A stretch of 64,000 bases of DNA from Candidatus Trichorickettsia mobilis (GTDB taxonomy: Bacteria; Pseudomonadota; Alphaproteobacteria; Rickettsiales; Rickettsiaceae), in NCBI RefSeq assembly GCF_963422225.1, contig NZ_OY728607.1, positions 1,351,001 to 1,415,000 of the forward strand, written 5' to 3'. The position numbers were made by a program, and so were the translations under genes. The notes beneath the pieces were generated by a model. That model did no database searches. It was given only the letters and a program-made list of their open reading frames with translations, and was not told where the DNA came from. Shown piece after piece: positions 13,053 through 60,604 of this stretch (position 1 is the first letter of the stretch; each line of letters starts with the position of its first letter).

Positions 13053-13183
13053 TATAGACGAAGGTCAAATTGAAGAAGTGCTAGAAGTCACAGAGTCGAG
13101 GAGCGCAAGCAGTCTTTAGTACGTGAGCACCGCAGATCTCTAGTGACGCGACGCAATTCTCAATTTTCACCTAGTATATACCA
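13053..13183 (-). repeat. Rickettsia-palindromic-element-like repeat at the 3' end of acnA
   Basis: The reverse complement (starting tggtatatactaggtgaaaa) aligns along its whole length with the copies at 20495-20625 and 31745-31875. All share gcggtgctcacgta in the middle and ttgaccttcgt near the end. This copy overlaps the last 17 bases of acnA and supplies its stop codon. Confidence 0.85.
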
Positions 13184-15827
13184 CAGTGTGCATAACACTA
13201 CCCTGCCTGATATATTCTATTTCACTATCAGTAAAAACTTGTAAAATTACTTCTATGGTATCTTGGACACCATCTTGCCTTTTAATTACACATTGTAAAC
13301 GTTGGTAAGGTTCAATGGAATCTTTTAAGCCATTAATTTCTATTTCTTCTGAACCAGTAAGCTTACAGTCTTTTCTAGTTAAACCATTGGCAAAAACTAT
13401 TGGTAACACTCCCATGCCCGCCAAATTCGATCTATGGATGCGCTCAAAACTTTCAGCAATAACTGCTTTCACCCCAAGTAAACTAGTTCCCTTAGCAGCC
13501 CAATCTCTGGAAGAGCCGGTACCATATTCTGCTCCAGCTATAACCACAAGCGGTATTGAACGTAGTTTATAATCCATAGCAGCATCATATATGCTCATCT
13601 GTTGCTGAGTTAATTGATTGATAGTCACTCCACCTTCTATTCCAGGGCACATTTCATTTTTTATACGGCCATTAGCAAAGGTTCCACGCATCATTACTTC
13701 ATGATTACCACGCCGCGCACCATAAGAATTGAAATCATTTTGCATAACGCCATGATCCATTAAATATTTTGCCGCTGGACTCGCTTTATTAATATTACCA
13801 GCTGGCGATATGTGATCAGTGGTAATTGAGTCTCCAAAGATTGCCAGTATTCTTGCAGATTTAATGTTACTAAGACTTAACGTAGCTTTTTCAATATTCT
13901 CAAAATAAGGTGGGTGATTGATGTATGTGCTATTTTTATCCCAATTATAAGTACTGCTTTTTGCTATTTTTAGACTTTGCCAATATTGATCCCCGGTAAA
14001 TACCTGACTATATTTAGCTTTAAAGATTGCTGAAGACAAAGATTGATTAATATATTCCTTAATCTCCTGCTGAGTTGGCCATAAATCTTTCAAATAAACA
14101 TCATAACCATTACGGTCTTTAGCAAGAGCCTGAGTCTGTAAATTAAGATTGATACTACCGGCTATAGCATATGCTACCACTAAAGGTGGTGATGCAAGAT
14201 AATTAGCGCGCACAGAAGCATGCACTCTACCTTCAAAATTTCTGTTACCAGATAATACTGAAGCTGCAACTAGCTGATTATTACTAATAGTATTATCTAT
14301 TTCAACAGCTAATGGGCCAGAATTACCGATACAAGTAGTACAACCATAGCCAACTAAATTAAAACCCAATTTATTTAAATATTGATCTAACCCACCAGCA
14401 GCAAGATATTCAGTAACAATTTGAGATCCTGGAGCCAGAGATGTTTTAACCCATGGTTTTGATATTAAACCTAAATTGCAGGCCTTTTTAGCTAATAATC
14501 CGGCGGCAACCATTACTGAAGGATTAGAAGTGTTAGTGCAACTGGTGATCGCTGCAATTACTACATCACCATGCCCTAAACTAAAATCTTTACCAGCCAC
14601 TTGGTATTTCTTGGTAATATCTTGATCACCTTTGGCTAAAGAAGGTAGCTCTGTTTTAAAATTACTAGTGATGTTGCTAAGGCTTACTCGATCTTGAGGA
14701 CGCTTAGGCCCAGCTAATGAGGTTTCCAGAGTAGATAAATCAAGAGCTAAAACATCAGTATATTCTGGGTCATCATTAGCATCACGCCATAATAAATTAG
14801 CTTTTGCATATTCGATTACTAGTTTAATTTGTTGAGGGTCACGTGCTGTCAAATGTAGGTACTTGATTGTTTCATTATCAATTGGAAAGAAGCCACAGGT
14901 CGCTCCGTACTCAGGTGCCATATTCGCAATCGTAACTCTATCTGCTAAACTTAAAGCATCAAGACCTGGGCCAAAGAATTCAACAAATTTGCCGACTACG
15001 CCCTTCTTTCTTAGCATTTGTGTTACTGTTAATACTAGATCAGTGGCAGTACTATTACCTCTTAATTCTCCAGTTAATTTTACTCCCACTACTTCCGGTA
15101 GAATCATTGGTAAGGCTCGGCCCAACATTGCTGCTTCAGCTTCGATACCACCTACACCCCAACCAAGAACCGACAAGCCATTAACCATCGTGGTATGGCT
15201 ATCAGTACCAACCACAGTATCAGGATAAGCTAAGGTTTCATTATTGTATTTTTGAGTCCACACTACTTGCGCTAAATATTCCAAATTAACCTGATGACAA
15301 ATACCAGTGCCCGGAGGTACCACTCTAAAATTATCAAATGTTTGTTGCCCCCATTTCAGAAATTCATAACGTTCCAAATTGCGTTGCATTTCTAGTTCGA
15401 CATTTTTCTTAAAAGCATCAGCAGATCCTGAATAATCTACTTGCACTGAGTGATCAATTACTAGATCTACCGGTATTAATGGATTAATTGTTAACGGATC
15501 TTTTTGTAGTTTCTTGACAGCGTCACGCATGGCAGCAAGATCTACTACCGCTGGAACGCCAGTAAAATCCTGCATTAATACTCTGGCTGGCATAAATGCC
15601 ACCTCTGCATCTGATTTTTTTTGTTTCAGCCATTCCCTAAACGCCAGTAATGATTGTGGGTCTTGATTAGTTCGTATTACATTTTCAAATAAAACTCGTA
15701 ATGAGTAAGGTAATTTATTAACTTCAAGACCTATGTCGCTTGCTGCTTTTTTTACGTCACACATAACATATGTGTGACCATCTATGTCTATTTTTATGGC
15801 GTATTTTGGATTATAAGGACTAGACAT
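13167..15827 (-). CDS. acnA: Aconitate hydratase A
   Basis: TCA-cycle enzyme interconverting citrate and isocitrate, 886 residues, cytoplasmic. The three [4Fe-4S] ligands are present: C430 in SCTNTSNPS, and C496 and C499 in GCTTCIGNSG. Also visible are VVGTDSHTTMVNGL, the swivel domain GDSITTDHISPAG, and GAEYGTGSSRDWAAKG. The last residues (VVYTR) come from an RPE-like repeat that starts inside the gene, so the natural C-terminus seems to have been replaced. The catalytic parts are unaffected. Confidence 0.97.
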   Translation of the reverse strand: MSSPYNPKYAIKIDIDGHTYVMCDVKKAASDIGLEVNKLPYSLRVLFENVIRTNQDPQSLLAFREWLKQKKSDAEVAFMPARVLMQDFTGVPAVVDLAAMRDAVKKLQKDPLTINPLIPVDLVIDHSVQVDYSGSADAFKKNVELEMQRNLERYEFLKWGQQTFDNFRVVPPGTGICHQVNLEYLAQVVWTQKYNNETLAYPDTVVGTDSHTTMVNGLSVLGWGVGGIEAEAAMLGRALPMILPEVVGVKLTGELRGNSTATDLVLTVTQMLRKKGVVGKFVEFFGPGLDALSLADRVTIANMAPEYGATCGFFPIDNETIKYLHLTARDPQQIKLVIEYAKANLLWRDANDDPEYTDVLALDLSTLETSLAGPKRPQDRVSLSNITSNFKTELPSLAKGDQDITKKYQVAGKDFSLGHGDVVIAAITSCTNTSNPSVMVAAGLLAKKACNLGLISKPWVKTSLAPGSQIVTEYLAAGGLDQYLNKLGFNLVGYGCTTCIGNSGPLAVEIDNTISNNQLVAASVLSGNRNFEGRVHASVRANYLASPPLVVAYAIAGSINLNLQTQALAKDRNGYDVYLKDLWPTQQEIKEYINQSLSSAIFKAKYSQVFTGDQYWQSLKIAKSSTYNWDKNSTYINHPPYFENIEKATLSLSNIKSARILAIFGDSITTDHISPAGNINKASPAAKYLMDHGVMQNDFNSYGARRGNHEVMMRGTFANGRIKNEMCPGIEGGVTINQLTQQQMSIYDAAMDYKLRSIPLVVIAGAEYGTGSSRDWAAKGTSLLGVKAVIAESFERIHRSNLAGMGVLPIVFANGLTRKDCKLTGSEEIEINGLKDSIEPYQRLQCVIKRQDGVQDTIEVILQVFTDSEIEYIRQGSVMHTVVYTR

Positions 15828-15886: not shown

Positions 15887-16180
15887 AGAACCTGTCTTGA
15901 AAGTGCATCTAAGTCTGAAAATTGAGAGTGTTCAATGAACTTGTCAAGTTAAGGAAAAGAGACGATGTGAACCGTCTTACTTGAGCACCCACACCTTTAT
16001 TGCGAGGGAGCTTCGCTCCCGTGGCAATCCAGTTATAATTATTTTTACTGTATTGCTTCGACTTCGTCTCGCAATGACGGTTTGTGTGTGTCATCTCTTT
16101 TTCCCTACTTGACGCGTATGGTTCATTGAACACTCTCAAAAAATCCCTCTCTTAATATCTAACTTTCAAAACAGGCTCTT
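15887..16180. repeat. Nested pair of MITE-like elements
   Basis: The outer element has ends agaacctgtcttgaaagt (15887) and actttcaaaacaggctctt (to 16180). Inside it, 15923-16138 is a second element with gagagtgttcaatgaac ends, the family seen at 19-331 and 32491-32698. That in turn contains an attgcgag ... gcaatccag repeat. The 76-codon ORF on the minus strand here is only repeat sequence. The whole 15828-16233 gap between acnA and ccmA is occupied by this nest. Confidence 0.8.
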
Positions 16181-19907: not shown

Positions 19908-21239
19908 CTAATTATTATATTTTCTCTGTAAATACACTAATAGCAAAATAGCCGGGATTGCTAAAATAATGGTAAAAATAAAGTAATAATCCCATCCTAA
20001 TTGGCGTACCAAAGTTCCACCATAGATAGTAACGGTATTGTTAAACAAACTAGCGGCGCTACTAAATAACGCATATTGCGTAGCAGAATATTTTTTATTA
20101 CATAATATGCTCAAATAAGCCACTAAGGCGCTTGAGCCCATCCCACCAGCAAAATTTTCTATTGAAATTGCAATAAATAACGCACTAAAATCAGTTCCTT
20201 GGTGGTTTAACCACACAAAAGCTAAATGCGTGATACTTTGTACAATACCAGAAATTATCAGCCCTTTAAAATAGCCAATTTTATATATTATTAATCCACC
20301 AGCATAAGTGCCCAGGATAGTCGCGATAAACCCATATACTTTAACCGCAATAGCAATCTGCTGTTTAGAGAATCCAAGCTCTAAATAGAAAGGCATACTC
20401 ACCACACCCAACATTGCATCTCCAAGTTTAAAGAAAATTACCGCTAATAAGATAGCAATAGCGCCTTCTCTGTTTAAGAAATCCATAAATGGTCTGGTAT
20501 ACTCGGTAAAAATCAAGAATTGCGGTGTCGTCATTTGGATCTTGCGGTGCTCACGTACATAAAGTACGCTGTGCTCCTCAGCTCCATGACTTCTAGCAAT
20601 TTCTGATTTTGACCTTCGTATATCTACCCCTTCATTTGCTTCATCAACAAAAAAAATAAATGTTGTAGAGAGCACAAAAATACCAGCGATCCATAACAGT
20701 GTCTCCGGCCAGCTATTAGTAATATGAGCTAAATATAGTGCACCACCACCGGTTACTAGCAAGCCTATCCTATAGCCAAACACAGCACAAGCAGCGCCGA
20801 CACCTTGCATTTTTTGTTCCAATTTTTCGATACGAAAAGCATCGAAACTAATATCAAATGTTGCTGACAAAGTACCAAGGCAGATAGTGAGAATATATAA
20901 TAATGGCAGATCAGCATTAGGTGATAATATACTCATACTATATAATATACCTGCAATTAACATAGAACAGCAGATCATCCAACTTGCTCGTCGACCAAAT
21001 TTACTCAAAAAAGGAATGCTGCAATAATCGATTATCGGTGACCATAGCGGTTTTAAAGAATATGGTAGTCGTGCTATCGCAAAAGTAGTGATAATTTCAA
21101 GAGTCACATCTGATTCTGTAAGCCAAGTGACTATTGTAGTACCGATAATGGCTAATGGCATACCACTAATGATGCCTAGAATAAATATTTCAAATAATCG
21201 ATACTCGCTGAGTATTTTAAATAAAGTTAGATTTTTCAT
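19908..21239 (-). CDS. ampG: AmpG-family muropeptide permease with in-frame repeat insertion
   Basis: Major-facilitator protein of 443 residues importing murein degradation products. It has about twelve hydrophobic segments, AmpG-like motifs (GIISGMPLAIIGTT near the start, LPYSLKPLWSPIIDY, ISFDAFRIE) and a C-terminal IILAIPAILLLVYLQRK. Residues about 205-248 do not fit the family and come from an RPE-like repeat (20495-20625) inserted in frame. They fall in the loop between the sixth and seventh membrane segments, where an insertion should be tolerated. The reading frame is uninterrupted. Confidence 0.9.
   Translation of the reverse strand: MKNLTLFKILSEYRLFEIFILGIISGMPLAIIGTTIVTWLTESDVTLEIITTFAIARLPYSLKPLWSPIIDYCSIPFLSKFGRRASWMICCSMLIAGILYSMSILSPNADLPLLYILTICLGTLSATFDISFDAFRIEKLEQKMQGVGAACAVFGYRIGLLVTGGGALYLAHITNSWPETLLWIAGIFVLSTTFIFFVDEANEGVDIRRSKSEIARSHGAEEHSVLYVREHRKIQMTTPQFLIFTEYTRPFMDFLNREGAIAILLAVIFFKLGDAMLGVVSMPFYLELGFSKQQIAIAVKVYGFIATILGTYAGGLIIYKIGYFKGLIISGIVQSITHLAFVWLNHQGTDFSALFIAISIENFAGGMGSSALVAYLSILCNKKYSATQYALFSSAASLFNNTVTIYGGTLVRQLGWDYYFIFTIILAIPAILLLVYLQRKYNN
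20495..20625 (+). repeat. RPE-like repeat inserted in frame within ampG
   Basis: About 131 bp starting tggtatactcggtaaaaat and ending ttgaccttcgtatat, homologous throughout to 31745-31875 and, in reverse, to 13053-13183. Its length is compatible with an open frame on the minus strand and it adds about 44 residues to AmpG. This behaviour is established for Rickettsia palindromic elements. Confidence 0.88.
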
Positions 21240-22291: not shown

Positions 22292-22389
22292 CGTCATTGC
22301 GAGACCACGTTAGTGGTCGAAGCAATCCAGATAATATTTTAGGATCTTCCTGGATCGCCACACTACGCTTTGCTCCGTTCACGATGACG
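22292..22389. repeat. cattgcgag/gcaatccag-type repeat
   Basis: A short inverted repeat starting cgtcattgcgag, with aagcaatccag and cctggatcgcc in the middle and ending cacgatgacg. Related copies lie inside 4293-4647, 19-331, 15923-16138 and 32491-32698, always between genes. Confidence 0.7.
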
Positions 22390-30527: not shown

Positions 30528-30856
30528 AATAAAAGTTTTTGATAAAAATATGGTCAGATGAATTTGTGAGGCCTATACCGAATATTGTATTGATAAACAA
30601 CGTTATCATATTTGGTTTATTGAATAGACTCATTTTTCTTTATTTAAACGCAAATAGGTATTAAGTAAACTAAAACTCTTATATATATATTCTATTCTTT
30701 AGAGATACAGGTAATTTGTTGTAAAAATTAGTTGTATAGCTGCGATACTTTCAAAAGTTGCTAGAAAAACTAGTGGTGGCAGTCATAAGCATGTGAATCT
30801 TGAAATTTGCATTATATTTATTTATAAATAAAAATAACTTAAGGATAATAGTAATT

Positions 30857-31606
30857 ATGAATAATATCTTGCTGCCATTATTTTTAATTTTCATGATTTG
30901 TGGCTGTGTTACTCAGCAGCCAGCCCCTATTGAATACAAAAATAGTAATGGTTATAATAAGGATCATCAAACTATCAATACTGGTAATTGGAGTGGTGAT
31001 CAAGACAAAACTATTGGAGCGATTAAAACTGAAGATACAGTAATAAGCCAGCCACTGCCAATAAAACAGAAAGAATATGATAAAATATCAGGTGAGTTGC
31101 ATGACCCTTATCACGATGATGAAAATATAGTTATGCCACAAAATTTGTCGAATCATAAACTTGATGAAACAGAAAAACTTGCGCAAGAACAAAAACAGGA
31201 TCTTACTAATAACGAGTCTAATGATACTGGGTATGACTATTTAAGACCTGTAAAAGGTGAAATAATTACAAAATTTGGCGAGATTACTCATGGTAAGAAA
31301 AGTAACGGTATCGATATAGCAGCTGCGCAAGGAAGCGCTATAATATCTGTGGCTGCTGGAGAAATAGTATATGCAGGGTTTGATGAGAAATTTGGTAATC
31401 TGGTGATAGTAAAATTAAATGATAATAATTTATATGTTGCATATGCCCATATGAATGATTTGATGTTTAGTAAAGGAGAGGTGGTAAAACAAGGTGATCT
31501 GATTGGTCATGTGGGTAGTACTGGTCACACTGACATGCCTAAACTCCATTTTGCAATAAGAGAAGGCAAGACGGCGGTAAATCCATTAAAATATATCCCT
31601 GAATAA
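30857..31606 (+). CDS. NlpD-like lipoprotein with degenerate M23 domain
   Basis: A 249-residue lipoprotein: lipobox ICGC with the modified Cys at residue 17, then a disordered acidic linker and a C-terminal LytM/M23 domain. The zinc ligands are lost: the first motif reads SNGIDIA (Asn instead of His) and the second KLHFAI (Lys instead of the first His). This matches amidase activators such as E. coli NlpD/EnvC, which lack activity and switch on AmiA-C. I start at the ATG at 30857, with aagga upstream, because it places the lipobox correctly; the frame is open further upstream. Confidence 0.85.
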   Translation: MNNILLPLFLIFMICGCVTQQPAPIEYKNSNGYNKDHQTINTGNWSGDQDKTIGAIKTEDTVISQPLPIKQKEYDKISGELHDPYHDDENIVMPQNLSNHKLDETEKLAQEQKQDLTNNESNDTGYDYLRPVKGEIITKFGEITHGKKSNGIDIAAAQGSAIISVAAGEIVYAGFDEKFGNLVIVKLNDNNLYVAYAHMNDLMFSKGEVVKQGDLIGHVGSTGHTDMPKLHFAIREGKTAVNPLKYIPE

Positions 31607-31744: not shown

Positions 31745-31875
31745 TGGTATACTCGGTGAAAATTGAGAATTGCGTTGTCGTTACTGAAAATCTGCGGTGC
31801 TCACGTATTAAGTATACGTTGCGCTCCTCGATTCCAGAACTCCTAGCACTTCTTCAATTTTGACCTTCGTCTACT
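31745..31875 (+). repeat. RPE-like repeat, intergenic copy
   Basis: Third copy of the roughly 131-bp element (tggtatactcggtgaaaatt ... ttgaccttcgtctac), between the terminator and rimP. With the terminator it accounts for most of the 31607-31923 gap. Confidence 0.87.
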
Positions 31876-31923
31876 CAATTCTTCACTTGGAAGTTTTTGT
31901 TTATATGTCTAAAAATTTTTTCA

Positions 31924-32409
31924 ATGATGCAAAATCTAGAACAAAAATTATTTAATATCATTGAAGGTACAATAAACCAACTTGGTTTTGAATTGGTAAA
32001 AATCACTTTGCAAAATCAGCCTAAAATGTTTGAAATTTTGATTGATAAGTATGATAATCAAAAGGTGAGTATTGGTGATTGTCGATTGGTGAGTAAAAAT
32101 ATATCCATTTTACTTGATGTCCAGGATGTCATTAAAGATAAGTATTATTTAGTGGTCTCCTCTGCTGGTATTGAAAGACCATTAATTACGTTTAAAGATT
32201 ATCATAAATTTTTAGGCTCTGAGATTAAAATGAGGCTAAAATCAATGATTAGTGGATGTAGCCATTATAAGGGCAAAATAATTAAAGCAGAAAATAATAT
32301 AGTATATTTAAAGAGTGATGATAAAGAAGTAGAAGTACCATTTGACTTAATTAAGAGTGCTAATTTAGTGCTTACCGACGATATGTTTAGGAAATTATTA
32401 AATAAGTAA
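31924..32409 (+). CDS. rimP: Ribosome maturation factor RimP
   Basis: 30S assembly factor of about 161 residues. The N-terminal domain contains GFELVKITL and the ISILLDVQDVIKDKYYLVVSSAG stretch with the family motif SSAGIERPL; the C-terminal SH3-like domain ends VPFDLIKSANLVL. The ATG at 31924 (or 31927) fits better than a TTG at 31897. It begins the rimP-nusA-infB-rbfA series, the usual bacterial order, here loosened by repeat elements between the genes. Confidence 0.93.
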   Translation: MMQNLEQKLFNIIEGTINQLGFELVKITLQNQPKMFEILIDKYDNQKVSIGDCRLVSKNISILLDVQDVIKDKYYLVVSSAGIERPLITFKDYHKFLGSEIKMRLKSMISGCSHYKGKIIKAENNIVYLKSDDKEVEVPFDLIKSANLVLTDDMFRKLLNK

Positions 32410-32479: not shown

Positions 32480-32490
32480 AGTGAATTACT

Positions 32491-32698
32491 GAGAGTGCTC
32501 GCGGAAACCTACGCGTCAAGTTAAGGAAAAAGAGACGATATAACTCGTCATTGCGAGCCGAAGGCGAAGCAATCCAGAAAGTGAAACAACTATTTAACTG
32601 GATTGCCACAACCACTATCGTGGTCTCGCAATGACCAATGACGGCTCGTGTCGTCTCTTTTTCCTTAACTTGACGCGTAGGTTTCCGCGAACACTCTC
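32491..32698. repeat. MITE-like element before nusA
   Basis: About 208 bp with long inverted ends (gagagtgctcgcggaaacct and complement, then caagttaaggaaaaagagac). It encloses a cattgcgag ... gcaatccag repeat. Same family as 15923-16138. With the preceding repeat it fills the rimP-nusA gap. Confidence 0.85.
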
Positions 32699-32769
32699 TA
32701 AATACTCGATAATTTGCAGATTTAACCGAGTATTATATACTTAGGTTGTTATTTAGAGGATTAAGGTAT

Positions 32770-40925: not shown

Positions 40926-41021
40926 ATGATTCACTTAAAGTAATAACATAATGAAGAATCCTAATCATATAAAACTTTTAAAATACATTTTTAACAAAGC
41001 ATGCCCCAAAACTCTTAGTAA

Positions 41022-42154
41022 TACCGATTGCAATAATTAACACGGTGTATTTATCCAGTCTCTATACATAATTGATTTTACTAAATCTACATTCTGAGCA
41101 AGTTGATTCCAAGCGTAACAAGCCATAGTGACAATATCTTCATATGCACCGTAACATTGGTTAGACAAGAAATGATTTTTGATCCACTCCCAAACTTGTT
41201 CCATTGCATTAAGTTCTGGTGCATAAGGCGGAAGCGGTATCAAAGTGATATTGCTTGGAACAGTTAGTTTTTTGGCTGTGTGCCAACCTGCATTATCCAT
41301 TAGTAAAGCTATATGTCGGTTGCTTTGAGTAGTGAGAGAAAGGTCTTCTAAGAATTTATTCATTGCCCGTGTGTTGGCATATGGTAAAATTAATGCAAAA
41401 GATTCTCCCGTATCATGGCAAGCAGCTCCGTAAATGTATGTTGAAATGAATTGCTGTTGCCGAACTTTACGGGGTCTAGTGCCGCGTTTAGCCCATATAC
41501 GAGTTAAGCTACCTTGTTGCCCAACTCGAGTTTCATCCTGAGACCATATATCAACGTTACATCTATCGATATTTTTTGGTAATAATTCTGTTAACATGTC
41601 TGGGAAGTTTTTTTATATGTATTTTGAGTCTCTTGATTTGACTTTGGATGCATTGAACGAGAAGTAATCCAGCTAAAACCAAGGCGATGCATAGTATTGT
41701 AGACTGTTTTTAAAGCGCATTTAGCGCCATATTCCTCAAGCAACATGTTATGTAGCTCCTTTGCGGTTATATACCCGCCAGTTTCACTTTCACTGAGCAT
41801 ATTGATTTTATCAAAAAGAGCAGATTCTTGTAGAGTGTTAATCTTCCTAGGAGCGCCGCTTCTTTGTGATTCAAATAAACCTTCAAAACCATGATTTCTA
41901 AATCTTCTGAGCCATGATTGCACGGTTTTCCAGTGCAACTTCACTATTGCAGATATGGCTTTAAAAGATTTGCCTAATTGAAGGTGATACATCGCCAATA
42001 AACGTATGCGATTCCGACCATGCGGCTCATGTTTCATCATTTTTATAAAATCATGATCATGAAAACCTAGCGGCAATATTAACTTAGCTATTTGAGTACC
42101 TTTTATCCGTTAAAAATCCATTTTAGGCCACCGCGTTAATTATTGCAATTGGTA
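41022..42154 (-). mobile_element. IS630-type element, 1133 bp (copy 1)
   Basis: Inverted ends start taccgattgcaataattaac and taccaattgcaataattaac. The flanks are TAA (41019-41021) and TAA (42155-42157). The copy at 57369-58501 has the same length and encodes identical proteins, so both are recent. Only the 3-bp duplication, and not the usual TA, restores both host frames. Confidence 0.9.
41037..42076 (-). CDS. IS630-type transposase, two overlapping ORFs (copy 1)
   Basis: ORF A (41591-42076) is the helix-turn-helix half (SFKAISAIVKLHWKTVQSWLRRF). ORF B (41037-41597) is the DDE half: DIWSQDETRVG, LLMDNAGWH and LPPYAPELNAMEQVWEW supply D, D and E. They overlap by 7 nt in different frames at an A7 run on the coding strand. 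A shift of -1 there gives a continuous protein of about 340 residues. The identical second copy argues that this arrangement is functional, through frameshifting or transcript slippage. Confidence 0.88.
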
Positions 42155-44542: not shown

Positions 44543-45423
44543 TAATATTTTCACTGAAGCCAAGAGCAGCATTTGCACAGAGTCAACCATAATGACCCTT
44601 TTACCAAAAGGTAAGCGAGAAGGCAGACATTGGCTAGCCTTGAATCCAATCCGCAATGACAATAATTTAGGCTCGTTTAAAGTTAATCTTACTACAGGAC
44701 AATTTTATGATTTTGTAACAGGTGATAAAGGAAGTGATATTATATCGCTATATGCTTATCTTAAGGGCTGTTCACAGTATCAAGCAGCTTATGAATTATT
44801 AGGAAAAAGTATAAATTTAAAAATCGATAATTTGAGCCACATCCCACCTAAAGCACCTAAATCACCTAAAGTTAATGTAGAAGAATATATTAAGAAGATT
44901 TGGTCTGAAACTTGGAGTAGCAGATGCTCTTTAGTTGAAAAATACTTGAAAACTCGAGGTGTAGAAATTGACAGTATACTGCCGTCAATTCGATATCACG
45001 GCAACTTATACCATAGTTCATTAAAAAAATGTTTTCCTGCTATGGTAGCGGCAATAACTAGATATGGAAGCGATAAAATCATGGGTCTTCATCGCACTTA
45101 CCTAAAAGGTGACGGTACTGATAAAGCAGATATATATCCTAATAAAATGATGCTAGGACAAATGAAAGGCGGTGCAGTAATGCTTGCATCTGCTGATTAT
45201 AAATTAGTAATTACTGAGGGAATAGAAACCGCTTTAAGCGTATATGTGGCAACAGGATTTGCTACATGGGCTAGTTTATCCGCATCAGGAATGATAAATA
45301 TACAAGTGCCGCCTGTAGATATTACTCGAAAAATTATTATTGCAGCAGATGCCGATGCAGCTGGAATTGAATCGGCAAACAAACTTGCAATTAGACTTTT
45401 GGATGAAGGTTATAAAGTTAGTA
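44535..45423 (+). pseudogene. Toprim-domain primase, N-terminal part (cut by IS and inversion)
   Basis: Phage/island-type DNA primase. The N-terminal half has LNPIRNDNNLGSFKVNLTTGQFYDF and GDKGSDIISLYAYLKG; the toprim domain carries LVITEGIETALSV (catalytic Glu) and IIIAADADAAG (Asp-x-Asp). An ATG at 44535 with aaaggag 9 nt upstream is the start. After 296 codons the frame enters the 903-bp IS and stops at 45440. The true C-terminus (IAMPSQDTDFNDLLKEVQ) is found on the other strand at 59644-59701. Only the last 18 codons are lost, so the product might still fold. Confidence 0.88.
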
Positions 45424-46326
45424 TAGCTAAACCTCTATAAAACGGTTATAATCAAAGGGTATAATTAAAATAATTGTTATGACATATTCGATAGATTTTA
45501 GAAAGAAAGTACTGGCTATCAAAGAAAAAGAGAAGATGAGTTTTGAATCAATATCAAAACGTTTTGGAGTAGGAAAAAACACGGTATTTGTATGGACTAA
45601 AAAAATATCTCCTCTAAAGAATAGGAATAGAGCTTCGAAAAAAATACCGATTGATAAATTGAGAGAAGACGTGGTGCAATATAGTGACGCGTATCAATAT
45701 GAAAGAGCTGAGCGGTTAGGAGTGAGTAAATCTGGAATACAAAAAGCATTAAAGAAGTTGAACATTACGTATAAAAAAAGCTTTAAAACATCCGAAGGCA
45801 AAAGAAGAAGAGAGGTTAGAATTTCAGAATAAGATAAAAAAGTACGAGGCAGAGGAAAAAGTTATTGTCTTTACCGATGAGAGCGGGTTTGTCCATAGCG
45901 CGCCTAGAACTCACGGATATTCGGCAAAAGGCAAGAGGTGTTATGGTGTTCATGATTGGCATCCGTCAAAAAGAACTAATGTTATAGGGGCATTAGTAGG
46001 TAAATCGCTGCTAACCGTGTCAATTTTTGACGGCAATGTTAATACAGTTATTTTTAACAGCTGGGTAGAACAAGATTTAATACCGAAATTACCTAATAAT
46101 TCCGTGGTTGTGACAGACAATGCAAGTTTCCATAAAAGTCCGTATTTAAAAACTATGATAGAAAAAGCTGGTCATATATTGGAGTACTTACCGCCTTATT
46201 CTCCTGATTTGAATCCTATTGAACCAAAATGGGCTCAAGCTAAATCTAGAAGAAGGAAATATCGCTGTGACGTAGACACTCTGTTTGAAAAGTACATGTT
46301 ATAACCGTTTTATAGGGGTTTAGCTA
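45424..46326 (+). mobile_element. IS630-type element, 903 bp (copy 1)
   Basis: 27-bp inverted ends with one mismatch (tagctaaacctctataaaac and tagctaaacccctataaaac). The same length and apparently the same sequence recur at 59702-60604, in the same orientation. The left flank is primase and the right flank is hsdR, so the element no longer sits in a single target. See the inversion finding. Confidence 0.92.
45479..46304 (+). CDS. IS630-type transposase, frameshifted (copy 1)
   Basis: ORF 1 (45479-45832) is the helix-turn-helix half (SFESISKRFGVGKNTVFVWTKK). The second part, ending 46304, is the DDE half (VIVFTDESGF, VVVTDNASFHK, LPPYSPDLNPIEPKWAQAK). The frames meet at an A7 run near 45773-45779: a +1 shift, or an A6 transcript, gives the expected LKHPKAKEEERLEFQNK. 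The second half is open well before the ATG at 46017. The same organisation in both copies suggests slippage and not decay. Confidence 0.87.
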
Positions 46327-56078: not shown

Positions 56079-57368
56079 AAAATTATTAATTCTTTATGAT
56101 TTTAAACGCATTTTTTCTCATTTTTCCCTTTATTAATGTTGGTTCGTCTTGCTTTTTAAGCCAGCCATGATCTATTAATATAGTAACAATTTTTGATGCC
56201 GTTGCTTTTGTAGAAATTGCATTTAAGCCTCTTTGATATATATCCGGTAGCGATATATAATCCTCATCCCATTTATTATGCAGCCAATCAAGAAGCTTTT
56301 CAGCAAGTATTATATCTGGATCAATTACCCCATTGTTAAATAACCTTAGTGCTTCTTCTCCGTAGTATGACGCAATTTCAATTCCCATTTTTATGTATTG
56401 ATAATCTAATTGTTTAACCTCTATATTGTCTATTGCAGCAAATGTAGCAGCTATTCTATACGCATGCTCTGGTAGCTTATTTGCAAAACCTTTAATAGAC
56501 TCAAGAGACTTACTGGGAGCAAGCTCTTTTTCTATATGATCGGAAAACTCATTATAGGCATTTAATGCCTGACCTTCCATATTGATTATTCTTGGATTTA
56601 ATTCGTTAGTACAACCATCTTTAATTGGCAAAGGTAATCTAAATATTTTATCAATTATTTGATTAAATGTAGTTAAGGCTTCAACGCTCTCAGATTTTAC
56701 CTCGTGTTGAAATCTAGTACCTATTGTGGTTAGTGGATAACTAATTAGTAGCCTAGAACACAAACCTTGGTCTTTTAATGCTATATCGGATAAAAAATTT
56801 GTACCGATATTTGGTTGCACCATTAAGTGCATACTTAATCTTTTACCTGCTAATATAATAGTGCCGTCACCGCCTCTTACTCTTTTTATCGGTTCACCAT
56901 CCCACATCTCGGATAACGCAGCGGCGGTACGAATTTTATTATCCGCACTCATACCGTAACCACCAACAAACTGTCCGCCTTCCGAGGAAAAAATACCGAG
57001 ACTCGGTCTGCTTGTTATCATTAATTTACATAACCCTTCAAACGTAGGATCAGGACATACAATTAATGGAACAAGCGGTGATACTGGTTTTGCTCCAAGT
57101 GCATCTAATTTGCTTTTTATTATATCTCTAGAACCGTTTGTACTTTTTTGCTCCCTAAGAATTAGCTCATATTCTCTTTTCCATGTCGTACAATCGTTTT
57201 CCCAGGCTTGTAGATCTACGCTGTTTTCTTTCCTAAGTTCCTCTTCATAATCTCTAACTGTCTTCAACATGACATTATCGCAACTAGTTTTTCTTTCGCC
57301 GCTTTCCGCAATAGTTAGAAAAAAGCATGAAATAGGCTTTATCTCTCCAAAAGGCATCATTATATTCA

Positions 57369-58501
57369 TACCGATTGCAATAATTAACACGGTGTATTTA
57401 TCCAGTCTCTATACATAATTGATTTTACTAAATCTACATTCTGAGCAAGTTGATTCCAAGCGTAACAAGCCATAGTGACAATATCTTCATATGCACCGTA
57501 ACATTGGTTAGACAAGAAATGATTTTTGATCCACTCCCAAACTTGTTCCATTGCATTAAGTTCTGGTGCATAAGGCGGAAGCGGTATCAAAGTGATATTG
57601 CTTGGAACAGTTAGTTTTTTGGCTGTGTGCCAACCTGCATTATCCATTAGTAAAGCTATATGTCGGTTGCTTTGAGTAGTGAGAGAAAGGTCTTCTAAGA
57701 ATTTATTCATTGCCCGTGTGTTGGCATATGGTAAAATTAATGCAAAAGATTCTCCCGTATCATGGCAAGCAGCTCCGTAAATGTATGTTGAAATGAATTG
57801 CTGTTGCCGAACTTTACGGGGTCTAGTGCCGCGTTTAGCCCATATACGAGTTAAGCTACCTTGTTGCCCAACTCGAGTTTCATCCTGAGACCATATATCA
57901 ACGTTACATCTATCGATATTTTTTGGTAATAATTCTGTTAACATGTCTGGGAAGTTTTTTTATATGTATTTTGAGTCTCTTGATTTGACTTTGGATGCAT
58001 TGAACGAGAAGTAATCCAGCTAAAACCAAGGCGATGCATAGTATTGTAGACTGTTTTTAAAGCGCATTTAGCGCCATATTCCTCAAGCAACATGTTATGT
58101 AGCTCCTTTGCGGTTATATACCCGCCAGTTTCACTTTCACTGAGCATATTGATTTTATCAAAAAGAGCAGATTCTTGTAGAGTGTTAATCTTCCTAGGAG
58201 CGCCGCTTCTTTGTGATTCAAATAAACCTTCAAAACCATGATTTCTAAATCTTCTGAGCCATGATTGCACGGTTTTCCAGTGCAACTTCACTATTGCAGA
58301 TATGGCTTTAAAAGATTTGCCTAATTGAAGGTGATACATCGCCAATAAACGTATGCGATTCCGACCATGCGGCTCATGTTTCATCATTTTTATAAAATCA
58401 TGATCATGAAAACCTAGCGGCAATATTAACTTAGCTATTTGAGTACCTTTTATCCGTTAAAAATCCATTTTAGGCCACCGCGTTAATTATTGCAATTGGT
58501 A
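57369..58501 (-). mobile_element. IS630-type element, 1133 bp (copy 2)
   Basis: Same ends, length and transposase proteins as 41022-42154. Flanks are TCA at 57366-57368 and TCA at 58502-58504, a 3-bp duplication. The two transposase ORFs lie at 57938-58423 and 57384-57944 and meet at the same A7 run. Confidence 0.92.
57384..58423 (-). CDS. IS630-type transposase, two overlapping ORFs (copy 2)
   Basis: Identical at protein level to copy 1 in both halves: 161 codons of helix-turn-helix region (57938-58423) and 186 codons of DDE region (57384-57944). Full conservation of the split frame in two copies indicates that the A7 shift is part of normal expression. Confidence 0.88.
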
Positions 58502-59643: not shown

Positions 59644-59701
59644 TTATTGCACCTCCTTCAATAAGTCGTTAAAATCAGTGTCTTGAGAAGGCATTGCAAT
59701 A
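59644..59701 (-). pseudogene. C-terminal tail of the toprim primase, displaced by inversion
   Basis: Read on the minus strand this encodes IAMPSQDTDFNDLLKEVQ and TAA. The motif A-M-P-x-x-x-T-D-F-N-D-L-L is the usual end of toprim island primases. Joined to 45423 through the shared TA it continues the primase exactly in frame (Lys-Val-Ser-Ile-Ala-Met-Pro). The DUF3987 ATG would have followed the stop after 2 bp. Confidence 0.9.
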
Positions 59702-60604
59702 TAGCTAAACCTCTATAAAACGGTTATAATCAAAGGGTATAATTAAAATAATTGTTATGACATATTCGATAGATTTTAGAAAGAAAGTACTGGCTATCAA
59801 AGAAAAAGAGAAGATGAGTTTTGAATCAATATCAAAACGTTTTGGAGTAGGAAAAAACACGGTATTTGTATGGACTAAAAAAATATCTCCTCTAAAGAAT
59901 AGGAATAGAGCTTCGAAAAAAATACCGATTGATAAATTGAGAGAAGACGTGGTGCAATATAGTGACGCGTATCAATATGAAAGAGCTGAGCGGTTAGGAG
60001 TGAGTAAATCTGGAATACAAAAAGCATTAAAGAAGTTGAACATTACGTATAAAAAAAGCTTTAAAACATCCGAAGGCAAAAGAAGAAGAGAGGTTAGAAT
60101 TTCAGAATAAGATAAAAAAGTACGAGGCAGAGGAAAAAGTTATTGTCTTTACCGATGAGAGCGGGTTTGTCCATAGCGCGCCTAGAACTCACGGATATTC
60201 GGCAAAAGGCAAGAGGTGTTATGGTGTTCATGATTGGCATCCGTCAAAAAGAACTAATGTTATAGGGGCATTAGTAGGTAAATCGCTGCTAACCGTGTCA
60301 ATTTTTGACGGCAATGTTAATACAGTTATTTTTAACAGCTGGGTAGAACAAGATTTAATACCGAAATTACCTAATAATTCCGTGGTTGTGACAGACAATG
60401 CAAGTTTCCATAAAAGTCCGTATTTAAAAACTATGATAGAAAAAGCTGGTCATATATTGGAGTACTTACCGCCTTATTCTCCTGATTTGAATCCTATTGA
60501 ACCAAAATGGGCTCAAGCTAAATCTAGAAGAAGGAAATATCGCTGTGACGTAGACACTCTGTTTGAAAAGTACATGTTATAACCGTTTTATAGGGGTTTA
60601 GCTA
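59702..60604 (+). mobile_element. IS630-type element, 903 bp (copy 2)
   Basis: Identical in length and in encoded proteins to 45424-46326. TA flanks at 59700-59701 and 60605-60606. Transposase frames are at 59757-60110 and about 60111-60582. It marks the right end of the inverted segment. Confidence 0.92.
59757..60582 (+). CDS. IS630-type transposase, frameshifted (copy 2)
   Basis: Same two-part transposase as at 45479-46304, with identical translations of both ORFs, including the A7 run where the frames meet. The DDE half contains VFTDESG, TDNASFH and PPYSPDLNPIE. Confidence 0.87.

Follow-up and report, generated by a model that had tools for sequence, protein, structure and literature searches.

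An RPE-5-type palindromic element in frame within ampG of Candidatus Trichorickettsia mobilis

The gene for the muropeptide transporter AmpG in Candidatus Trichorickettsia mobilis contains a palindromic repeat and remains open from end to end, which raises the questions of what kind of element this is, how the gene came to hold it and in what frame it is read. The locus was studied in a window of 64,000 nucleotides, the whole stretch of DNA analyzed here (positions 1351001-1415000 of a single-contig genome of 1,678,977 bases; coordinates without a prefix are those of the window). Palindromic elements of this general type (RPEs) are described, in excerpts of a paper on R. japonica, as known from all sequenced Rickettsia and Wolbachia, with RPE-1, -2, and -3 frequent in ORFs and RPE-4, -6, and -7 treated in genes (PMC3767692). 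Extracts of a review present RPEs as MITE-like and report a guanylate kinase with an RPE insert that is translated and active, its substrate affinity being changed (PMC2229807). It has been stated that each RPE encodes a conserved peptide (excerpt of PMC10969869), and one in-frame RPE was noted in a Torix-group genome (excerpt of PMC5656822); further background is given in extracts of PMC2635572 and PMC1950309. Among the papers listed by literature searches, none is about RPEs in a flagellated genus of the Rickettsiaceae, judged by title and abstract opening.

The ampG gene (19908..21239, minus strand) encodes 443 amino acids in an intact frame, within a stop-free stretch of 451 codons counted stop to stop. 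Its product scores 413.5 bits against TIGR00901, the AmpG family model (cut-off 350), so the initial view that the repeat leaves the gene unbroken appears to hold. The full-length element (20498..20622, minus strand) lies in sense orientation and is read in frame +1; it matches positions 1-125 of R1, a covariance model built from the copies of this genome, with 127.5 bits. Matches to AmpG were found in 66 other genomes of the family, 29 of which were aligned and 37 left out. Both this alignment and solved AmpG chains place the insert in the loop joining membrane segments 6 and 7, where it had been put at first sight; in the solved chains the site falls in the linker joining the two transporter halves. 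The insert is absent from all 29 aligned proteins, including that of a sister species of the same genus (G084), and the inserted residues, whose presence in unrelated AmpG proteins had been named as the point that would count against an inserted repeat, were thus not found elsewhere among the aligned Rickettsiaceae.

Comparison with the sister species shows that the element did not simply lengthen the protein. The sister AmpG has no element and carries 19 residues between DEA and T(K/R)PF, vs 46 in the window protein (N202-Y247, codons 202-247; 20499..20636, minus strand), a segment that takes in about 13 bp to the left of the R1 core with no alignment to the sister sequence. Because 46 residues replaced 19 native ones, the net gain is 27 residues (81 bp) and not the 44 or so of the sequence-only reading, which had not seen the replacement. 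A weak G/A tail is common to the copies to the left of the R1 core (0.4-0.8 bits of information at positions -3 to -1), and because of this tail, and because the RPE5 model discussed below reaches 12 nt further left, the element probably starts to the left of the R1 boundary. Outside the loop, ampG and its sister orthologue are conserved (dS 0.291, dN 0.035, dN/dS 0.12 over 393 codons), the ratio spanning the time both before and after the insertion. With an open frame here and an empty site in the sister, this appears to be an in-frame insertion into a conserved gene.

The inserted peptide is mostly hydrophilic and the loop is charged, and AmpG seems to carry the translated element as an additional loop that does it no harm. 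In the solved structure 9j9z, whose name describes a fusion of AmpG with cytochrome b562, the matched halves are about 99 residues further apart than the unfused 8zgz would put them, and from the residue numbering a whole domain would sit in the same linker; in 8zbb, also an AmpG fusion, the shift is about 92, the placement of the first half not being displayed.

The element is one of many. A BLAST search of the genome against itself returned 40 copies at E<=1e-9, that in ampG included, and the other 39 share 72-83% identity with it (a 41st match, a 28-bp piece of one of the 40, was left out). The 40 copies are 118-130 bp long with 29 consensus pairs, and R1, which was built from them, yields at least 95 matches genome-wide with E<=1e-3 when 150 of 579 candidates are scored; the window holds three of the matches. 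The region of the ampG element folds far better than its shuffles (z -5.1; 0 of 200 as good). The element thus has the general traits of RPEs: a length of 100-150 bp, a palindrome and many interspersed copies. The two additional window copies noticed in the sequence-only reading were both recovered, and all three are elements of about 125 bp. The second (13055-13178, plus strand) lies downstream of acnA (13167-15827, minus strand), and because the acnA frame ends within it, with 12 bases that include the stop codon (13167-13178), this copy supplies the end of the AcnA protein. The third (31748-31873, minus strand) is situated between an NlpD/DipM-like ORF (30800-31606) and a RimP-like ORF (31897-32409). 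Elsewhere in the genome, elements at five loci (L017, L025, L029, L030, and L031) share 62-116 bp with long frames of one strand or the other, to which they may contribute tails or stop codons.

Repeats of other kinds were also noticed in the window. Interspersed families with inverted copies (ACTTGACGCGTA...GAACACTCTC and GTCATTGCGAG...) occur at 16098-16148, 32480-32702, and 22293-22334, and one is apparently nested within the other near locus L006. Two pairs of 300-bp direct repeats, 99-100% identical (41016-41315 / 57363-57662 and 45422-45721 / 59700-59999), both flank the type I restriction genes hsdM and hsdR.

The sequence-only reading had taken the repeat for an RPE-like element, inserted in frame in a flagellum-encoding relative of Rickettsia, and had added that it perhaps represents a separate family. 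The former description stands, and FliG is indeed encoded in the window; the latter suggestion does not. Full-length copies are found by R1 in Rickettsia-type genomes (best 7e-24) and in Torix-group genomes (best 1e-26). All ten loci fetched with TIGR03776, the NCBI model of the RPE5 domain, match R1 over positions 1-125 with 31 to 135 bits, the weakest of them (L105) coming from the window genome. At six Rickettsia-type loci (L101-L104, L109, and L110), position 1 of the TIGR03776 profile lies 12 nt before R1 position 1, so that the register is common to them. A consensus of the Rickettsia-type genus g21, built from 16 copies at 14 loci and translated in frame 0 with X at stops, scores 32.1 bits against TIGR03776 (cut-off 29.45), and its other five frames give no match to that model. 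Because the loci of the RPE5 model match R1 from end to end in a shared register, the ampG element is, on the evidence of these models, RPE-5 and not a new family. The proposal that the genus has a separate RPE family of its own can draw on the variants peculiar to it, which within the genome share the identities to the ampG copy given above, on the lack of any NCBIfam RPE match in the AmpG peptide and on the 15 RPE5-model matches of the window genome, one of which is above the cut-off among the matches listed; it is largely refuted by the end-to-end matches in the ten RPE5 loci and by the full-length copies in the other two groups, and we hold it to be improbable.

In eight genomes searched with TIGR03776, matches at E<=0.01 were obtained in all eight and above the cut-off in six, and none were obtained in 14 control genomes. 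RPE-1 (TIGR01045) is likewise a coding palindromic repeat of Rickettsia and is present in the window genome too (27 matches at E<=0.01 and 21 in the sister, 9 and 8 of them above the cut-off, the model also giving below-cut-off signal in 1 of 14 control genomes); it differs in being another sequence family, to which the ampG insert gives no match. RPE-2 has matches in four of six genomes searched and none in the window genome (G000) or its sister. We take g21 to be Rickettsia from its RPE-2 and RPE-5 content, and g24 is presumably the Torix group. Within the Rickettsiaceae, 56 of 85 genomes, belonging to 12 of 24 genera, contain the element according to R1, in a search whose stricter filters lost weak matches. 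A search across the Rickettsiales gave matches in 68 of 261 genomes, 31 of them outside the Rickettsiaceae (best 1.5e-13, up to 11 per genome); these outside matches may be distantly related to the element or may be palindromes that match by chance.

A peculiarity of the ampG copy is its reading frame, which escaped the first inspection. AmpG reads the element in frame +1, in which R1 position 2 opens a codon, and the RPE5 domain corresponds to frame 0. This difference of frame explains why the AmpG peptide does not match the RPE5 domain; it matches no other NCBIfam RPE model either, and does not join the family at the peptide level: as far as the models can tell, the DNA within ampG is RPE-5, yet AmpG is no RPE5-domain protein by TIGR03776. 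Ten matches among those listed from Rickettsia-type genomes (G047, G052, and G065) are stop-free in frame 0 within frames of 281 to 709 aa. A probe of frame +1 in 13 genomes gave 452 matches, and none of the roughly 150 listed is stop-free in a frame longer than 108 aa; the ampG match itself lies outside those listed.

In the window genome, 11 of the 95 matches fall without a stop in frames of 225 aa or more, and only two of these exceed 100 bits, ampG in frame +1 and ligA (120.4 bits) in frame +2; they keep 27 and 28 of the 29 palindrome pairs, respectively. The remaining nine (34-74 bits) fall in an RluB-type pseudouridine synthase (antisense, N-terminal), a thiolase (N-terminal), Era, an isoleucyl-tRNA-synthetase-like part, a PuuD-type hydrolase, LpxB, GAPDH, RlpA (N-terminal; RPE5 at 20.2 bits, below the cut-off), and an unknown protein (RPE1 at 19.9 bits, below the cut-off). 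There is no clear sign that coding copies lose the palindrome, because the three of these nine that were scored keep 25-27 of 29 pairs in an alignment fitted to the structure. An RPE5 domain above the cut-off (35.3 bits) begins a 5-formyltetrahydrofolate cyclo-ligase. Part of what is counted as N-terminal may lie before the start codon and go untranslated, and chance matches or other repeat families may be among the lowest-scoring cases. Altogether, about a dozen genes of this genome, ampG among them, are candidates for such insertions, the others having gone unseen in the sequence-only reading.

The closest counterpart is ligA. The LigA of the window genome has an insertion of 40 residues absent from the 11 other LigA proteins aligned, and the ligA of the sister has 6 bp between the two matched pieces, a few native codons having been replaced here as well. 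It appears to be a parallel case to the ampG insertion, found in the window genome only among those aligned. Since the ampG copy is read in +1 and the LigA copy in +2, it seems to be the frame of the host gene that sets how the element is read, with selection keeping open insertions in tolerant loops. In a genome of g24 (G083; L190:733-2988), LigA has a different insertion of 42 residues about 30 residues upstream of the window-genome site, with no NCBIfam match.

Four of the genes named above hold a second coding repeat, whose peptide (SKLA..VLEAYGA..SVHKVREDSSLGATTQLSTGVEFQ.RS) is in frame in Era, the PuuD-type hydrolase, GAPDH (N-terminus), and LpxB (C-terminus); the copies lie at G000:C1:516563-516700, 944227-944361, 1222444-1222575, and 1015938-1016075 (L161, L145, L182, and L180). 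It is weakly RPE1-like (12-15 bits vs a cut-off of 30) and has seven matches in the window genome, four in the sister and weak ones in three of six other genomes. It may be an undescribed RPE family.

Could the insert have given AmpG a new function under selection, such as a regulatory or binding loop? The charged loop of 46 residues and the purifying selection on the gene would suit this idea, but the insert is known from a single genome, of the 40 copies found by BLAST 39 are not wholly within a long stop-free frame, and the LigA copy, being in another frame, gives a different peptide. We therefore rate a selected function lower still than a separate family. An assembly or sequencing artefact is the least credible reading of all, given a single-contig genome, a frame kept through 443 codons and the independent case of like kind in LigA.

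The palindrome itself has been well kept. Over the 40 copies, standard pairs make up 94.4% of cells, vs 86.2% in shuffled and 34-43% in slid controls, changes on both sides are seen at 20 of 29 pairs vs 8.6 in shuffles, and none of 500 shuffles attains any of five pairing measures; the structure came from the tested alignment, which favors it over the slid controls, and related copies can beat shuffles without structure. If the palindrome worked as RNA in the ampG message, for example as an attenuator, terminator or processing signal, then such covariation and the strong fold would be expected, and the two apical pairs, which are mostly G-U, would fit as well. Selection on one RNA strand should favor G-U over A-C, however, and over the other 27 pairs G-U is barely ahead. 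The ratio of G-U to A-C cells is 26:25 in the 40 BLAST-found copies (32 other mismatches), 34:31 in 53 own-genome copies (31 others; these two sets overlap) and 25:18 in 47 copies from other genomes including the sister (49 others), the two pairs of each set in which G-U is the commonest type, duplicate rows and lower-scoring rows having been left out (rows taken: 48 of 61, 47 of them distinct, in A4, and 53 of 70 in A5). In addition, Rfam at gathering score finds tRNA alone in the window and no family at the element. We consider an RNA role in ampG about as improbable as a separate family. The near equality of G-U and A-C points to maintenance at the level of DNA, for example by copying from arm to arm, which in our judgment fits better than an RNA function. 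The parity could also stem from RNA transcribed off either strand, and the mostly G-U apical pairs speak against DNA-level maintenance.

For 11 of the 40 copies found by BLAST, both flanking sequences are present in the 400 kb of the sister genome that were compared. Six of these sites are filled in both species, four hold a fragment or remnant in the sister, and one, ampG, is empty. Judged by eye, three of four filled sites compared hold a different variant in each species, and two of the four remnant sites consist of joined ends only. At two loci that are full in the window genome (L024 and L039), the sister keeps joined ends of about 22 and 12 bp by eye (G084:C1:711720-711808 and 768741-768625). 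The joined ends in the sister look as if the hairpin had been deleted, and elements there seem to have been lost by internal deletion and altered in place. The ampG copy, with its empty sister site, seems to have been gained after the species split. Neither inspection by eye nor the alignments showed a target-site duplication at ampG or LigA.

Taken together, a copy of RPE-5 very probably entered the ampG linker after the species split, replaced the native loop, and is read in the host frame and tolerated. RPE-5 would be a non-autonomous, MITE-like repeat of the Rickettsiaceae. After the split from the sister species, a copy would have entered, in a presumed single event, the stretch of ampG encoding the linker that joins the two six-helix halves of the MFS transporter, and either the insertion event or a later deletion would have removed about 57 bp of native loop sequence. 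The ribosome would read through the element in the ampG frame, this copy being by chance without a stop in it. Because the inserted peptide would be tolerated, purifying selection on AmpG could have retained this rare in-frame case. As for movement, we can only conjecture that the element spreads via a single-stranded or cruciform DNA hairpin and that arm-to-arm copying keeps its palindrome.

The element is thus of a known kind, in a new host genus and a new gene. It shares with RPE-5 as modelled (TIGR03776) the DNA element from end to end, the length, the palindrome, the many copies and their presence, in some cases, in frame in genes; it differs in that the ampG copy is read in +1 and not in frame 0, in its host genus and in the replacement of 19 native residues. 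Repeats of the MITE type (ERIC and Correia/NEMIS, as described in extracts of PMC2229807) are similar in having about 100-200 bp, inverted repeats, TA-like ends, and occasional gene fusions, a likeness drawn from description; unlike them, the element shows no target-site duplication at ampG and LigA. What is new is the freedom of frame, the exchange of native codons for the element and the signature of maintenance as DNA. A broader reading would join these, with RPE-5 as coding DNA free of frame, its palindrome renewed by arm copying and its spread due to a hairpin or template switch and not to a cut-and-paste transposase. It would cover ampG in +1, ligA in +2, and N-terminal insertions, perhaps older, in frame 0, each insertion losing a few to about 20 native codons with no target-site duplication; we offer it tentatively, as possible and on balance doubtful.

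For the family, the finding extends in-frame RPE insertion to a genus of the Rickettsiaceae beyond Rickettsia and the Torix group, the element being present in half of the genera searched. The species pair offers filled and empty sites for the same genes, so that two old questions become testable, namely whether RPEs have a peptide of their own and how they move. On the first, ampG and ligA speak against a conserved peptide proper to RPE-5; on the second, a classical transposase is made less likely by the loss of target sequence with no visible duplication and by the upkeep of the palindrome at the DNA level. If RPE-5 is indeed free of frame, RPE peptides would be by-products of the host frame and not conserved selfish peptides.
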